The notes under the pieces are model-generated. The model saw only the letters and a list, made by a program, of their open reading frames with translations, was not told where the DNA came from and made no database searches. The translations under genes were made by a program, and so were the position numbers. A stretch of DNA of 64,000 nucleotides, from contig MEQL01000049.1 of NCBI GenBank assembly GCA_001770205.1, positions 1 to 64,000 of the forward strand, given 5' to 3'. The stretch is from Bdellovibrionales bacterium RIFOXYD12_FULL_39_22 (GTDB taxonomy: Bacteria; Bdellovibrionota; Bacteriovoracia; Bacteriovoracales; Bacteriovoracaceae). Of the stretch, positions 91 to 36,474 are shown piece by piece; position 1 is the first letter of the stretch, and each line of letters starts with the position of its first letter.

Positions 91-327
91 TTACATTAAG
101 CACCGGTTGGCAATTGAACCAGCTCCTTGTTCTGCAATATATTGGCACAAATCGAGACCATATATGGAATAATACCCAGAGTTTACTATTTGATCGCATT
201 CATTTGCGGTACTAGAGAAGCTCGTCCTTCCCACTTCGTCGCAGACATTTTGAGGAGTGAGGGAGTATGCAAACGAAAGATTACTAAATACAGTACTTGC
301 TAATAAAAGGACTAAAACTTGTTTCAT
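91..327 (-). CDS. small secreted four-cysteine protein
   Basis: Encodes about 78 residues starting MKQVLVLLLAS, a clear signal peptide ending near Phe-Ala, followed by a short mature domain with four cysteines (in NVC, ANEC, LDLC and NRC contexts) that could form two disulfides in the periplasm or outside the cell. The longer frame to 369 is possible, but the ATG at 327 has a GAGG Shine-Dalgarno about 6 bases upstream, so it is preferred. The gene has the same orientation as the next minus-strand genes and its 5' end abuts an interspersed repeat (346-476). I do not recognise the family. No function can be assigned. Confidence 0.6.
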   Translation of the reverse strand: MKQVLVLLLASTVFSNLSFAYSLTPQNVCDEVGRTSFSSTANECDQIVNSGYYSIYGLDLCQYIAEQGAGSIANRCLM

Positions 328-345
328 AATAACCTCACTCACTTT

Positions 346-476
346 CCTAATATTAAAAATCTGGGCCATGCTCGTTATTTCTCAATCTTTGCGATCCTGC
401 TCCGAAAAGCTCATCTTTCTGCGCAAGATCTATTATCCGCCAACATTCCCGAGCACAGTCTGCTTATAACTAGATT
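346..476 (-). repeat. ~130-bp interspersed structured repeat, copy A
   Basis: Near full-length copy of a repeat also found at 2597-2726 and 3255-3385, with a truncated copy at 885-920. The copies share the blocks AAAAATCTGGGCC, TATTATCCGCCAA and the central AAAGCTCATCTTTCTGCGC-type segment, and differ by scattered substitutions (about 80% identity by eye). It fills the gap between the stop of the gene at 494-862 and the start of the gene at 91-327. On the minus strand, TGCTCG near one end can pair with CGAGCA near the other, around an inner ATCTTGCG/CGCAA-AGAT stem, so the whole element could fold as a long imperfect hairpin. Confidence 0.8.
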
Positions 477-493
477 AAGAAGTTTAGCTCCGT

Positions 494-862
494 TTAATTT
501 TTTTGTTCTAAGTTTGGATCAATAATACACATTGAAGTTGCTTCAGCTAGTTCCGTTAATCTTTTTGAAAGTTCTTTTGCATGAATTGGCATTCTCTGTC
601 TGTACAAGTAAGCAATCTCATCAACTCGTTGAACATCCCGCGCTCCAGTAGCGTCTGCGGCTATAAATTGAGCATCTGCTGATAATGCATATAAAATTCC
701 TTCTAATTGAGACTTATAACGACTACATGTTTTAACTCTCGCGATCTGCTCTTTTCGGTCCTGTATCTGTTGATCTCCCATTTCTTTGAGATCTTGTACT
801 AAAGTGTCCGCAAAAGTTGAAACTGCAAAAAAAGTTAATAAGCCGGCAATCATTTTTCTCAT
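494..862 (-). CDS. small secreted protein, family unknown
   Basis: Encodes about 122 residues beginning MRKMIAGLLTFFAVSTFA, a signal peptide predicted to be cut after Phe-Ala. The mature part is hydrophilic and mostly helical in appearance, with only two cysteines (KTCSRY and SMCII), suggesting a soluble periplasmic or secreted protein. The ATG at 862 is chosen over an upstream one at 880 because AAGGAG lies 6-8 bases before it. The gene is followed by repeat copy A and preceded by truncated copy B, so it behaves like one unit of a cassette-like series. I do not recognise the family. Confidence 0.6.
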   Translation of the reverse strand: MRKMIAGLLTFFAVSTFADTLVQDLKEMGDQQIQDRKEQIARVKTCSRYKSQLEGILYALSADAQFIAADATGARDVQRVDEIAYLYRQRMPIHAKELSKRLTELAEATSMCIIDPNLEQKN

Positions 863-884
863 AATTTTCTCCTTGTTCATTAAT

Positions 885-920
885 CAAATATTAAAAATCT
901 GGGCCATGCCCGTTATTTCT
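885..920 (-). repeat. truncated copy B of the interspersed repeat
   Basis: Matches only the first ~36 bases of copies A, C and D (AATATTAAAAATCTGGGCC through CGTTATTTCT) and then diverges abruptly at 921. It lies directly upstream of the gene at 494-862. The breakpoint is about 120-330 bases left of the dead IS110-family element, so the truncation may be linked to that insertion or to an associated deletion; this link is inferred. Confidence 0.65.
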
Positions 921-1064
921 AAAGCAGGCGAAACCTCCATCTGGACACGCATTATTATATAAGCTCAGTGTAGTGCAAAGTTGAGTGCAATAATATAGTA
1001 ACTATTAGTAGCTGTAATTTTTTACCATCCTGTCAATTTTTTTTACATTTAATAAAACTAAGAA

Positions 1065-1245
1065 GGCGCAAGGACGAAACCATAACGGGATTGAGCATGG
1101 ATATGGCTCCAACTCGGATCTAATTTGTTCGGAGATCTACTCCAAGGACGCAGAATTGTTCTCAAGATTTATTTTTGAAGACGGATAGCAAAGTTTGCAT
1201 TTTTCTAGATTGCCTACCTTCTTATTAACTTTTTTGGGGAGGTAT
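1065..1245 (+). ncRNA. candidate bridge-RNA region of the IS110-type element
   Basis: Non-coding leader immediately upstream of the transposase. It contains several short potential hairpins: GAGC (1093-1096) with GCTC (1106-1109), GATCT (1117-1121) with AGATC (1133-1137), and GGAG (1131-1134) with CTCC (1140-1143), the last two being mutually exclusive. Bridge RNAs of IS110-group elements come from this position and consist of stem-loops that pair with target and donor DNA. The assignment rests on position plus small hairpins; the target- and donor-binding loops were not identified. The rest of 921-1064 shows no gene. Confidence 0.45.
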
Positions 1246-1248
1246 TTA

Positions 1249-2510
1249 ATGGAGTCAATTCACAATGCAGTCGCTGGTGTAGATGTTCACCAATAAAAAC
1301 TAACCATCACAACATTAGTTGGAAAAGATTCCGGCAAAATCACCAAAACAACGTGGGGAGTGCGCCACTTACACCGATGATTTAGTTGCTGCTGGCAAAA
1401 AAATTAAATCACTCGGTGTTACTGAAGTTGCGATGGAGAGCTCCGGTGTCTACTGGAAACCTGTTTTCAATGTCTGGTCCAAGATGGGGATTAACATCAC
1501 CCTGGGTAATGCCTATCACATCAAAAATGTTCCTGGCAGGAAAACTGACATTAAAGACAGTGAATGGCTTGCTCAACTCCATCGCAATGGACTCATCAGG
1601 CCCTTTATATCCCGGCAGAAGAGTTTAGGAAATTACGAGATCTGACTCGCCATCGAGGGAATCTTGAAAAGGACATTATTGATGTTAAAAACAGGATTCA
1701 AAGGACCTTGGAGGATGGGAATATTAAACTGAAGTCAGCTATCTCAAACGTCTTTGGTGTCGCTGGTAGAAAAGTTTTAAAGGCCATCATAGAGGGGGAA
1801 AAAGATCCTGATGTTTTGGCCGGCCTTGTTGACACTAATGTAAAAGCGAAAAAGGAGGTGATTAAAAAATCGCTAAATCATACTATAGATGAGACAAATT
1901 TATTTCTTCTGAACAATATGTACAGTCAATTACTATACCTTGAACATCTTGCACAAGAGTTGGGAAAAAAAATGACGATATGATGACACCCTATAACGAG
2001 TTTATTAAAAAGTTAGATAAAATACCCGGAATCGATAAAATTACAGCACAAATCATTATTGCTGAGGGCACAACGGATATGAAAAAATTTAAAGACGCAA
2101 AGTCATTTGCGGCCTGGGCGGGAGTGGCATCTGGGAACCATGAATCTGCTGGTAAAAAAAAGAGGGCCAAAGCACGCAAAGGTAATCCAGCGTTAAAGAA
2201 GGCACTTGTTATTGCTGCCAATGGTGCAGTAAAAAAGAAAAACACATTCTACAATGCCAAGTATTTCCGACTAACTATGAAAACGGGACCAGCAAACAAG
2301 GCAAAAGTCGCTATTGCAAACAGAATGGCCATGGCGATCTACTGTATATTATCCAAAAATAACGTACGATATCATGAGATGGGTACTGCAAGGGTGGTGG
2401 ATGAGGGGAAAAAAATTAAAAATCTTATCAATCAGCTAAAATCTTTAGGGGTTGAAGTAAACCATTGTACAAAAGAAAAAATTGAAGCTGTGGTAAAAGT
2501 CTCGGCATAA
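1249..2510 (+). pseudogene. IS110-family transposase, interrupted
   Basis: Starts at an ATG with GGGAGG upstream. The N-terminal RuvC-like DEDD part is visible (AGVDVH with the first Asp, MESSGVYW with the Glu, GRKTDIKDSEWLAQL with the two later Asp residues), then a helical linker and the C-terminal Transposase_20 region (IPGIDKITAQIIIAEG, FAAWAGVASGNHESAGKKK). An in-frame TAA lies at 1294-1296, and the reading frame shifts near 1350, near 1605 and near 1980, so four lesions separate the pieces now open at 1319-1645, 1564-1983 and 1980-2510. The gene is non-functional as a single protein; the multiple lesions indicate an old insertion. Confidence 0.9.
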
Positions 2511-2596
2511 GTTGGTTTAAAAATTTTATAATAATTCAGTCTTTGATTTAAAGACCAGGGGAGGATTTTGCTCTTTGAAAAAGTTCGCTTATATAG

Positions 2597-2726
2597 CAAT
2601 AGTAAAAATCTGGGCCGCGCCCGTTATGTCTCAACTTTTTTGGTCTTGCTCAGAAAAGCTTATCTTTCTGCGCAAGAACTATTATCCGCCAATGTTACCA
2701 AGCACAAGTCACTTACAATCTTAGTT
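2597..2726 (-). repeat. interspersed structured repeat, copy C
   Basis: Full-length copy. Its right end overlaps the stop codon (2721-2723) of the minus-strand kinase gene. On the minus strand it contains TCTTGC-G-CAGAAAG, a short loop, then CTTTTCTG-A-GCAAGA, an almost perfect hairpin, and outer arms GTGCTTG and CGGGCGC that pair with G-T wobbles. The corresponding arms in copy A are GTGCTCG and CGAGCAT, so the pairing is kept despite base changes. Confidence 0.8.
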
Positions 2727-3209
2727 AATGGCATCTAATACTTTGTTTACGGATTCTTCAATTGAATTATATGTGTTATCAATTTTTTTTGATTTCATTT
2801 CATCATACAAGTTTGAATTAATAATACTATCTAGAAAAATTTCATCTTCTATACCACGCTGACGAAGCCTTTTTTTCAACTCTTCTTCCAAGCATGTTAT
2901 AGTTACTATTACTAATTTATAATCAATATCCTTAAGTTTGCTGAGAAATCTTTTAAAAACTACTTCTTTGTCAATTACCCAACTAAAAATAACATTTTGA
3001 TAAAAAGTATTATTCAGATAGTTTCGAAGAAGGAATAGAGTATTACTTTCAATCATATTAATATTTTCATCAGTAAAGCATATAGGATTCATCATCCAGC
3101 ACCAGTCAGCATCAAGCCAGATGCTTTTGTCCATTTTTTTATAAAGGACTTTGCATATCGATGATTTTCCTACGGCCATATTGCCATTTATTATAATCAG
3201 TTTTTTCAT
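2721..3209 (-). CDS. small P-loop kinase-like protein
   Basis: Encodes 162 residues with a Walker A motif at residues 9-16 (GNMAVGKS) directly after a hydrophobic strand (KKLIIIN), the layout of small-molecule kinases of the AAA_33/adenylate-kinase-like group. WLDADW at about residue 31 fits the acidic second-strand motif, and KKRLRQRG near residue 112 resembles an arginine-rich lid. Probably a cytoplasmic ATP-dependent phosphotransferase; the substrate cannot be told. Members of this group include antibiotic phosphotransferases and nucleotide kinases. The gene is flanked by repeat copies C (at its stop) and D (45 bases upstream of its ATG), and there is no clear ribosome binding site. Confidence 0.65.
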   Translation of the reverse strand: MKKLIIINGNMAVGKSSICKVLYKKMDKSIWLDADWCWMMNPICFTDENINMIESNTLFLLRNYLNNTFYQNVIFSWVIDKEVVFKRFLSKLKDIDYKLVIVTITCLEEELKKRLRQRGIEDEIFLDSIINSNLYDEMKSKKIDNTYNSIEESVNKVLDAIN

Positions 3210-3254
3210 TTTAATTATGTAGCCTTTGTGAAGCAGATAGAGATTTTCTCTAAA

Positions 3255-3385
3255 CCTAATATTAAAAATCTAGGTCATGCCCATTATTTCTCAACTATCG
3301 TGATCTTGCTCAGAAAAGCCCGCCTTTCCGCGCCAGATTCATTATCTGCCAACGCTCCCATTCACAGTTCACTCATTAATCTAGT
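3255..3385 (-). repeat. interspersed structured repeat, copy D
   Basis: Full-length copy between the kinase gene (2721-3209) and the duplicated-domain secreted protein gene (3381-3776), overlapping the latter's TAG stop. It is the most diverged copy (for example CTAGGTC replacing CTGGGCC) but keeps the central hairpin segment, with CGGAAAG facing CTTTTCTG on the minus strand through a G-T wobble. Confidence 0.75.
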
Positions 3386-3776
3386 ATTTGCTGATTCTCG
3401 AAATTTCAACATAATGATCTCCAGAAAGAGTTGTTTGAACTAATCCATTTGAAGAAATATCTAAAATTTCTGTTTTCATTTGATCAAACGCATAATTTTG
3501 AATAACAGTTTCTCCAATTTTAAAAGTTACTCTATTAAAAAACCTAAACTCGCTATAGCTATCAACGCTCTTGTATTTTTTTATTCTCGAAATTTCAACA
3601 TAATGATCTCCAGAAAGAGTTGTTTGAACTAATCCACTTGAAGAAATATCTAAAATTTCTGTTTTCATTTGATCAAACGCATAATTTTGAATAACAGTTT
3701 CTCCAATTTTGAAATCTGCGCCCAATGTCAGATAACTTGTTACAATCAGCAATAATATAAAAAGCTGCTTTCTCAT
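3381..3776 (-). CDS. secreted protein with recently duplicated domain
   Basis: Encodes about 131 residues. MRKQLFILLLIVTSYLTLGA is a signal peptide; the ATG at 3776 is preceded by AGGGGATC, so it is preferred to the upstream one at 3815. The mature protein is two copies of a ~42-residue unit beginning FKIGETVIQNYAFD and ending DHYVEISRI, joined by a linker of about 20 residues. The units look like small all-beta repeats, possibly SH3-like barrels, but I do not recognise a named family. The DNA copies are almost identical, so the duplication is recent. The gene ends inside repeat copy D. Confidence 0.65.
   Translation of the reverse strand: MRKQLFILLLIVTSYLTLGADFKIGETVIQNYAFDQMKTEILDISSSGLVQTTLSGDHYVEISRIKKYKSVDSYSEFRFFNRVTFKIGETVIQNYAFDQMKTEILDISSNGLVQTTLSGDHYVEISRISKY
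3394..3710 (-). repeat. intragenic direct duplication, two ~128-bp copies
   Basis: Positions 3394-3521 and 3583-3710 are direct repeats 189 bases apart. I see a single clear difference inside them (CCATTTG against CCACTTG). Each encodes one domain unit of the secreted protein at 3381-3776. Confidence 0.85.
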
Positions 3777-4003
3777 AAATGATCCCCTTATTTCAACCAA
3801 ATAATTAATATTCAAAACACACTCATAAATCGTCTACGTTAGTGAGTGTAGCATGAGGGCAGAGGCCAAATGTTGGAAAAAAAAATTTATGTCCACAATT
3901 ACATACTCTGTACAAGAATTGTGCAGGCATAACATCTTGGAATCTTACCAACCCAGCAGATCATAACTTATTAATCTGAACACTCGGCTATCACGAATGG
4001 CCT

Positions 4004-4495
4004 GTGTATCAACTGACTGCAACACTCGACGCCTTGGGCCTTATAATGGCCTCGCGGCGATCAATTCATAGAACTTTTTTCTATCCTTATTCCTTGTATT
4101 TTGGCACTTACGAAGACATTATTCAGACATTCGCATCATGGAGAATTTTAGACCTGACCACCCTTTTGAAAAAAGTTGACTACAATTATTCACACCAGGC
4201 ATTTGCAAAAAGATTGAAGAAGCTAGAGGATTCTGGTTACCTTTCATCTGTCTATTTTTAAAACTATCGCAAGTATCTATCGCAAGTATCTTTTTTTGAC
4301 AGAGAAAGGATTGTCAAAGGCCGGACTAACTAAAGCGTGGGCGGGGAACAAGAAGATTATTCAAAAACATTTGCTAATCTTAAAGATGCGATAACGTGGC
4401 AGGCCAATTTTCACCCTTCACTTCCTGATGTAGTTGTAAAAAATATCTGCAACCGTGGCCTGCTTGAGCAGCTGGCCATTAATTTCATGGTATAG
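4004..4495 (+). pseudogene. broken gene of unknown family, possible winged-helix fragment
   Basis: A GTG-started frame gives 85 residues ending at 4261, including a helix-rich part (ASWRILDLTTLLKK and FAKRLKKLEDSGYL) that looks like a winged-helix segment. Downstream, shifted frames continue with plausible protein sequence (LFLTEKGLSKAG, then DAITWQANFHPSLPD up to a TAG near 4493), so at least two frameshifts are likely. A 13-base direct duplication (CTATCGCAAGTAT, twice, from about 4263) sits at the first break and may have caused it. The original function is unknown; winged-helix proteins of mobile elements are one possibility. Confidence 0.4.
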
Positions 4496-4588: not shown

Positions 4589-5415
4589 TCAACCATTAAG
4601 ATAATTAAGCCCCATCAGCAGCGCCTCTAATTTTTGAATTATTAGTTTCTCCTCTTCCTCACTACTTGTTCTAGAGAGGACGATCATACTTCGCGCCAAT
4701 TTTTCCTTGCGTATAGAATCACTCAAAATATTTTTTATTAGTTGCACATGATCTTCGTTGGTAAAATTTTTAATTCGAAGGCCCATTAACGCAACTACCG
4801 CCGAACTAGATTCGTGGTCGAATTTTTCTAAAATATCAATATGATTATCTAATAAACATTCGTAGGCGTCAGGATCTATTTTTTCGTAGTTGGAAATGAT
4901 ATAGTTTATATCTTGAGCATCTCTTTGCCGGGAGGGATTTTCGTTCCAGGAGACAATTTTTAAGGCCACCAGCATTTCCGGAGTAACTACTTTTACTTCG
5001 CTTTTTCCAAACCTTATAACTTTCGAACTATTCAAGGCTTGTTGATAACCAGTTACGGTTACAATCGAGTCATAAAAGGGCGGCCATGATACCTGGCCAT
5101 TTTACTCGACGCCCCCAAAGGGCAAAAGATCAAAAGGAGTACCATTATAGTAATATCTCGACTTGTTTTTTTCGCTGTTACCCGGCCTGATCTTGGAGTC
5201 TTGTCAAAATAAGTCGCGCAGTAATTCTAATGTATCCCAAGAGTCAATCAAAAGCGCAAAATCTACATCAGAGGTTTTTCTAGGAGAGAGCGCGCTAATC
5301 CTGCTTCTTGGGAGATTATATCTCGTGCCATTGCCCCTACGATGAAAAAATCAATGTTTAGATATTTAAAGTGTTTGCCAAGTCCTTCGACAATATTTTC
5401 AAAATCAGTATTCAT
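4589..5415 (-). pseudogene. AbiEii-like nucleotidyltransferase toxin, inactivated
   Basis: Read from an ATG at 5415, the protein begins MNTDFENIVEGLGKHF and reaches FFIVGAMARDII, the nucleotide-binding start of this nucleotidyltransferase family. After a frameshift near 5285 the catalytic SDVDFALLID motif continues. In-frame stops follow at about 5205 (TGA) and 5108 (TAA), with TPFDLLPFGG between them. The C-terminal part (from about 5035 to 4589, VTPEMLVALKIVSW and QRDAQDINYI) remains open. Intact relatives transfer nucleotides to RNA targets such as tRNA and act as type IV toxins. The start overlaps the end of the antitoxin gene by 11 bases, the usual operon layout. Three lesions mean no active toxin is expected. 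Confidence 0.8.
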
Positions 5416-6442
5416 ATTTGGCAAGTGTGGTTTTAATTTGCTTTTTTAGAATTTCGGCAGTTTCAAGATTTCTATCAATTCCCGAATTAAGTAGTTCACA
5501 ATAGGTAATAAAATCAGGAATGGTGCCATCGTTGTTATTTAATTCAGTCGGCCAAAAACATTTGGAGATTTTTATCTGGCCTTTAGGATCTTTTTTTAAG
5601 CGAAGTATTTTTAATAAAGAAGAGATATTATCCTCATATGTATAAATATTAAAAAATTCTGGCGTCAGGTAATCCGTGCGGATTGCGGCGGCCGCTTCAC
5701 CCCCCCAGTATGAATCTGTGGTAATGGATTTTTTTTTCCATGATCCAAAAAAGCTATTATCAAGAGGAGAAAATTTCCCCAAGAGGTTATTCTTTTTTGT
5801 CTCAAAATCTAAAAGAGAAATTCGACATCTTGCGGCCAGATCTTCAAAACGGCCAAAATAGCGCTGTCTGTTTTTGGAAATAATTAATTTATAACTATAA
5901 AAATTTTTCAACGCTTTATTAACAGCCCCCAATGACAGATCAAGCTTTTCTGCCAGATCTCTCTGGGTAAAGGTCAACGCCTCTGGGCGACAGGCCAAAT
6001 ATAGCATTAATTTAATGTTGCTTTCTGCGCGCAAACCCTTTTGCTTAATTGGGTTGTCGATCGTGAGCGTTTTGCTTTTGGAAAGAAGTAGATTTAGAGG
6101 AAGAAACAATTTTTTGTCAATTTCATAAAAACCAATCCCTTGTTCTTTTAAACTATCTTCAATTTTTTGTTCAATAGAGTATGCTACTAAAATGCTAATC
6201 CCTTCAAAATTTTTGGCAATCTCTATAAAACGTTTGAGTTGAGTTATGTGAGAAACTTGTTCCTTGGTCTCAATTAAGATTGGAACTTCGATTGTTCCAA
6301 CTTGGAGAGACAAAAAGAAATCTGGAGAGTAGTTGATTCCGATAGGAACCTTTCCATGATTTTCGACTATTTTCAATCCCAGCTCTTCATCAAAAAGGTG
6401 TTCAATTTTTGCCAGGTACTGTTTTTCTAGCTTATTGTCCAT
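5405..6442 (-). CDS. AbiEi-like antitoxin of a type IV toxin-antitoxin system
   Basis: Encodes about 345 residues, uninterrupted. The N-terminal half has a restriction-endonuclease-like look (VPILIETKEQ, then a strand ILVAYSI), as in the longer AbiEi-type partners. A helix-turn-helix lies at about residues 155-195 (TFTQRDLAEKLDLSLGAVNKALKNF), fitting a DNA-binding autorepressor. The ATG at 6442 has GGAG six bases upstream, while an upstream TTG at 6454 overlaps that site, so 6442 is chosen. In intact systems this protein neutralises the nucleotidyltransferase toxin and represses the operon. Here the toxin is a pseudogene, leaving an orphan antitoxin that could still regulate, or protect against incoming toxins; that role is inferred. 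Confidence 0.75.
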   Translation of the reverse strand: MDNKLEKQYLAKIEHLFDEELGLKIVENHGKVPIGINYSPDFFLSLQVGTIEVPILIETKEQVSHITQLKRFIEIAKNFEGISILVAYSIEQKIEDSLKEQGIGFYEIDKKLFLPLNLLLSKSKTLTIDNPIKQKGLRAESNIKLMLYLACRPEALTFTQRDLAEKLDLSLGAVNKALKNFYSYKLIISKNRQRYFGRFEDLAARCRISLLDFETKKNNLLGKFSPLDNSFFGSWKKKSITTDSYWGGEAAAAIRTDYLTPEFFNIYTYEDNISSLLKILRLKKDPKGQIKISKCFWPTELNNNDGTIPDFITYCELLNSGIDRNLETAEILKKQIKTTLAKYEY

Positions 6443-6471
6443 TTTTTGCTCCAATCACCTATATAATACCC

Positions 6472-32966: not shown

Positions 32967-33043
<77 letters not shown>

Positions 33044-36371: not shown

Positions 36372-36474
36372 AGGTGGCCAGATCTGTGATGATAGTATGT
36401 GCGGCGAACTCCGCCAGGTCGGGAACGAAGCAACGGTAACTGTCTCTGCTAGGTGTTGCTGGTTTGGCCGCCGC
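36372..36474 (+). ncRNA. ffs: bacterial small SRP RNA (4.5S)
   Basis: The conserved domain IV core is visible: CAGGTCGGGAACGAAGCA, with a GGAA tetraloop closed by G-C and the asymmetric AGCA/ACGG internal loop contacted by Ffh. The ends GGTGGCCA (36373-36380) and TTGGCCGCC (36464-36472) pair to close the long hairpin, and a T run follows. It sits immediately upstream of dnaX, a common bacterial order. Exact ends are estimated. Confidence 0.9.

Follow-up and report, generated by a model that had tools for sequence, protein, structure and literature searches.

Single-gene units with a directional ~125-bp repeat beside integrative-element remnants in a Bacteriovoracaceae genome

In the window, by which we mean the whole stretch of 64,000 nucleotides that was analysed, single genes pointing in one direction alternate with copies of a ~125-bp repeat and are headed by a ~280-bp leader, beyond which lie remnants of an integrative element. 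Both this architecture and its connection with the remnants of integrative elements have good support. The best single reading is that an integrative element bears an integron-like array of cargo genes served by a site-specific cassette mechanism, to which we give slightly less than an even chance. According to this reading, the window would hold one of several cargo arrays attached to decayed elements of the IME/ICE type, and each cassette would consist of one gene plus a ~125-bp tag beginning at its stop codon. The leader would lie between the array and a divergent backbone operon encoding a tyrosine recombinase, an excisionase-like HTH protein, a winged-helix protein and, in some cases, an ECF sigma factor. 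The ends of leader and tag would be two recombination sites with a common AATATT core, at which the tyrosine recombinase would insert, remove or reorder cassettes, leader and tag working like attI and attC with different sequences. We infer the recombination, its enzyme and its crossover point, as well as transcription from the leader. In this one genome we saw neither a rearrangement nor a circular form or an empty site, and no cassette gene is present twice, which counts against such a mechanism.

The repeat and the genes that it adjoins

A sequence model of 23 copies, searched across the contigs of the same genome (estimated to be 94.6% complete, in 62 contigs), returned 32 significant copies of the repeat on 21 contigs. 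The array of the window consists of the following features:

91-369, minus strand: last cassette gene before the contig end, signal-peptide-like start, no Pfam family
349-473, minus strand: repeat copy 1, full (core match 349-464, extended by the leading CTAR to about 473)
494-880, minus strand: cassette gene, signal-peptide-like start, no Pfam family
887-923, minus strand: repeat copy 2, right-end fragment only
933-2592, plus strand: broken IS110-family element within the array, with IS1111-type subterminal repeats and approximate ends (ORFs 1319-2510, plus strand, PF02371)
2598-2724, minus strand: repeat copy 3, full (core match 2598-2713, extended by the leading CTAR to about 2724)
2721-3209, minus strand: second cassette gene, P-loop kinase-like (AAA_18, from Pfam)
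3258-3384, minus strand: repeat copy 4, full (core match 3258-3373, extended by the leading CTAR to about 3384)
3381-3815, minus strand: first cassette gene, signal-peptide-like start, probable ATG near 3776, with an internal 146-bp duplication

The three core matches and the fragment are the three full and one truncated copies of a ~130-bp element that a preliminary description had placed between minus-strand genes. A full copy, including the conserved CTAR, starts at or just past the stop codon of the upstream gene, and its right terminus is AATATT or a variant differing by one base. In the window the same-strand stop codons lie at 494, 2721 and 3381, and the following genes begin just past the other end. 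The claim that the element runs from a stop codon to just before the next start also holds for most copies genome-wide, with genes taken from simple ORF calls: a same-strand gene ends within 150 bp in 21 of the 26 copies with an intact left end, and among the 28 intact right ends, 20 have a same-strand start next and four an opposite-strand stop. The distance from stop to repeat is 5-7 nt in nine of those 21 copies, and a few overlap. Scattering of the copies irrespective of gene orientation, which had been named as a result that would speak against an integron, was not found, since an opposite-strand gene adjoins the intact left end only once, as opposed to the 21 same-strand stops. The units are thus directional single genes, each followed by a site. 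Copy number and placement together go far beyond what chance would give.

The right boundary is sharp, most columns holding 1.3-2.0 bits before the AATATT end and 0.0-1.3 bits beyond, where a weak TT stands at +4/+5. A search for target duplications at the copies found none, the similarity of the flanks within copies being that between copies (P 0.62 and 0.33), and a MITE of a DDE transposon was rejected on this ground. A start codon within the repeat (M-A-Q-I-F-N-I) was also considered and dropped, as it is not preserved in every copy. Counted from the copy table and the contig sizes, a copy lies no more than 2.5 kb from a contig end on 16 of the 21 contigs; the arrays thus tend to coincide with assembly breaks.

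Variants of the tag are mixed between arrays. The similarity of array neighbours is 0.737 and that of copies from different arrays is 0.744 (P 0.64); neighbouring tags are therefore no more alike than tags of different arrays, which rules out local tandem duplication as the origin of the arrays. The left and right halves of the repeat vary independently and the two left quarters are linked, a test weakened by the right half, which hardly varies. The consensus fold consists of a central stem of nine pairs only. This stem is kept in 94% of cells, as opposed to 33-52% when it is slid along the alignment, and compensatory changes occur in three of the nine pairs. Covariation is modest, and so is the evidence that the hairpin matters, whether as DNA or as RNA.

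The cassette proteins are unrelated to one another; a single weak match among them is due to translation of the repeat itself. By a crude rule, a signal-peptide-like start is found in 22 of 33 cassette proteins and in 10 of 29 ORFs from the rest of the window (P 0.02), and the cargo is predicted to consist mostly of exported proteins. Pfam matches include a trypsin-like protease, an M23 peptidase, leucine-rich-repeat and ankyrin proteins, an ADP-ribosyltransferase-like protein and the P-loop kinase-like protein, while many cassette proteins have no family. The gene at 3381-3815 contains two copies of 146 bp, 96% identical and in frame (3380-3714), a duplicated domain that the preliminary description overlooked.

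The leader and the backbone remnants

The leader, likewise overlooked before, was exposed at array heads by an all-against-all comparison, and it is present whole or in part on nine contigs. It has the same orientation as the repeats after it and points into the array wherever repeats follow. In the window, the features at the head of the array are:

3797-4084, minus strand: leader of ~280 bp, attI-like in position
3819-3849, no strand assigned: inverted arms ACACTCAnTAA / TTTATGAGTGT in the leader, a candidate recombination site
4094-4388, plus strand: decayed winged-helix backbone gene, divergent from the array (tblastn to the C45 protein, 87% identity over 62 aa and then 49% over another 51 aa)
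4346-4480, plus strand: tyrosine recombinase fragment, divergent from the array (tblastn to the C13 recombinase, 71% identity over 45 aa, E 2e-17)

The inverted arms are the most conserved part of the leader in the alignment, and AATATT follows them at 3807-3812. The leader end and the repeat end are alike (GAATATTA and TAATATTA): after the arms comes GTTTTGAATATTA, which is close to the repeat terminus ATTTTTAATATTA. The two ends agree at 11 of 13 bases, and a match that good is found at 2.6e-4 of sampled positions. One repeat class is similar at its left end, GATTAATGAGTG, to the right arm of the leader, GATTTATGAGTG, at 11 of 12 bases, a level reached by 1.7e-5 of positions. These similarities between leader and repeat core are short, AT-rich and chosen after inspection, and they may thus serve as leads. 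A promoter scan of the window did no better than shuffles. Upstream of the ECF operon, a similar motif, GAAAATCTCAC with its neighbours, is kept on C45 (L119 8195-8346), C19 and C13, and partly in other genera (also L116, L122, L174 and L208); the region is perhaps an autoregulated promoter.

Divergently upstream of the leader are genes for the winged-helix protein, an HTH_17 excisionase-like protein and a tyrosine recombinase. The recombinase is complete on C13, where it has 427 aa and adjoins tRNA-Ser. On C45 it is split by a frame change, adjoins tRNA-Arg and is accompanied by the ECF sigma factor, and on C19 a different recombinase, which is broken, lies beside the leader. It had been stated that the window has no integrase; this is correct for intact genes but not for decayed ones, given the recombinase fragment at 4346-4480. 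On C13, C45 and C19, as in the window, the leader thus adjoins backbone homologues or their remains, as expected of an IME/ICE cargo region. Against the proposed mechanism, a complete recombinase is found near just one leader, and several of the arrays with a leader are not close to any recombinase. The winged-helix protein is a member of an ICE family: it comes after a type IV secretion cluster and a coupling protein on C46, C11 and in many family genomes, and its gene is followed by those for SSB, an excisionase-like protein and an integrase on C46 and in the majority of these family genomes. The C13 recombinase looks like an ordinary tRNA-site ICE integrase, which likewise counts against that mechanism. 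Its relatives with organism names are nearly all from Bacteriovoracaceae, Halobacteriovorax or other Bdellovibrionota/Oligoflexia MAGs, and this places the host.

The arrays share with the IMEs and ICEs of Bacteriovoracaceae (type IV secretion, coupling protein, winged-helix protein, SSB, excisionase-like protein, integrase, tRNA sites) a homologous divergent operon beside the leader, but their cargo consists of tagged single-gene units behind that leader, whereas relatives with the same integrase family mostly have no such arrays or tags. Beside the decayed backbone in the window (4589-6454) lie genes for an AbiEii-like toxin (4589-5035) and an AbiEi-like antitoxin (5405-6454), on the minus strand, an apparent type IV toxin-antitoxin pair. 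The only Rfam matches of the window are a tRNA gene at 32967-33040 and the bacterial small SRP RNA at 36376-36472, both on the plus strand.

Insertion sequences and alternative explanations

The stretch between copy 3 and the fragment at 887-923 is an IS110-family insertion that had escaped notice. Its right end adjoins the repeat end in the window, as also happens on C34, and members of the IS1111-attC group lie at one end of attC in a similar way. The published targets of IS1111 members are one end of an attC site or a REP sequence (PMC11187229). The junction is suggestive in that it shows the repeat end to be a structure that can be recognised, but it favours none of the readings, and since REP is targeted too it does not reveal the nature of the tag. 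On C36 (L118 3950-4519), a leader contains an insertion element that has terminal inverted repeats of 24 bp (GATATTGTCCCAGAACTGATGTGC) and is flanked by a duplication of ~14 bp; the same end is found after a repeat on C54. This sequence had first been taken for a cassette start after leader and repeat, and was dropped once it was seen to be the terminal inverted repeat of that element.

The main rival, which we find possible though somewhat unlikely, is that the repeat is a 3'-end element specific to the lineage, comparable to REP, ERIC or MITE sequences, which spread by itself into islands. Its sense orientation would be kept because the hairpin stabilises or separates mRNAs, the units of gene and tag would be immobile, and the leader would be a duplicated promoter region of the integrative element. 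Like repeats of these types, the tag is short, multi-copy and non-coding, has a conserved hairpin and adjoins gene ends, with ERIC in particular resembling it in length and position. The retention of the stem and its compensatory changes fit this explanation, as does the existence of solitary copies, of a few copies without an adjacent same-strand gene, and of REP-targeting insertions of the IS1111 type. However, the tag differs from such repeats in its strong direction relative to genes, its fixed offset from stop codons (nine stops at the same 5-7 nt) and its leader-headed arrays, and no target duplication accompanies it. Moreover, no autonomous parent was found, the two Y1 transposase genes lying on contigs that have no copy of the repeat, and neither the position of the leader nor its matching end would be explained. 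The ERIC-like or mobile repeat that the preliminary description gave as its main alternative retains some probability, though the leader, the directionality and the absence of a target duplication make it less likely.

It is quite improbable, in our view, that islands with an original unit of promoter, gene and tag were remodelled by homologous recombination between leaders or tags, with insertion sequences adding breaks and no dedicated recombinase. The copies of leader and tag are similar enough to recombine, and insertion sequences are frequent at arrays and contig ends. This explanation leaves open how unrelated genes first gained a tag at the stop codon, and the finding that array neighbours are not more alike also speaks against it.

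Integrons are recognised by IntI and attC. As in sedentary chromosomal integrons and CALINs, single genes in the same direction are each followed here by a site of ~125 bp that starts at the stop codon, there is a common head sequence, and a divergent tyrosine recombinase or its remains lie beyond the head. The cassette analogy drawn in the preliminary description is strengthened by the single one-direction genes, the stop codon at the first bases of the element, the shared head and the absence of target duplication, but the specific idea of attC sites and an integron fails for the core pair and for IntI. With the attC core-pair definition of PMC3053210, none of 27 copies has an RYYYAAC ... 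GTTRRRY pair 40-150 bp apart on either strand (shuffled expectation 0.3), in agreement with the earlier remark that no convincing pair was present. Folding of the whole site as single-strand DNA is near the shuffled level in five of six tests, one copy reaching a z of -2.3. The IntI-family integrase that had been proposed as a search target was not found in the genome, where the best match to TIGR02249 scores 52.7 bits against a cut-off of 265 and the C13 recombinase scores 22 bits. A canonical integron was rejected, and the system was not classified as one, because all three tests failed. Further differences are the ICE/IME-type recombinase, several short arrays instead of one, and an AATATT end common to head and tag. 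A true integron with divergent attC, whose IntI was lost or lies in the missing part of the 94.6% complete, 62-contig assembly, is very improbable on these results, even though the cassette geometry and a site length within the published 57-141 bp (PMC3053210) would agree with it.

Occurrence in relatives and significance

Among 129 family genomes, in each of which up to six candidates were scored, at least one, from another genus, contains a partial copy of the repeat, 95% identical over 93 bp. A gene on the same strand ends ahead of this copy, and the gene that follows it has a signal-peptide-like start; the right end of the copy is degraded, and no leader is present in the stretch read around it. 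A search of plasmids and one exact-pattern scan each of genome contigs and viral contigs gave nothing. No description of such a system was returned by a literature search, most subscription journals being outside its reach. In another genus (G017:C3, L186 220-8177), an ECF-186aa-winged-helix operon has four direct copies of a different repeat of ~190 bp on its divergent side. A Bacteriovorax stolpii MAG (CAMDDI010000033.1, L232 167-4753) has four direct copies of a ~155-bp repeat near a recombinase fragment, three of which come soon after same-strand stops or overlap them. Although the layout is similar, neither repeat is counted as support, because the directions of the neighbouring genes are mixed.

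A stronger form of the integron-like reading, which we regard as unlikely, is that an integron-like system evolved independently on integrative elements, with a leader and a hairpin tag that share an AATATT core, a tyrosine recombinase other than IntI and mostly exported cargo. If this is true, it would be a second cassette system, different in its sites and its recombinase, and the capture of gene cassettes would have arisen more than once. Present integron finders, which look for IntI and attC, would be expected to miss such arrays. It would also offer a view of how this lineage of Bacteriovoracaceae, relatives of predatory bacteria, stocks varied exported proteins, among them proteases, a peptidoglycan-peptidase-like protein, repeat proteins and an ADP-ribosyltransferase-like protein.
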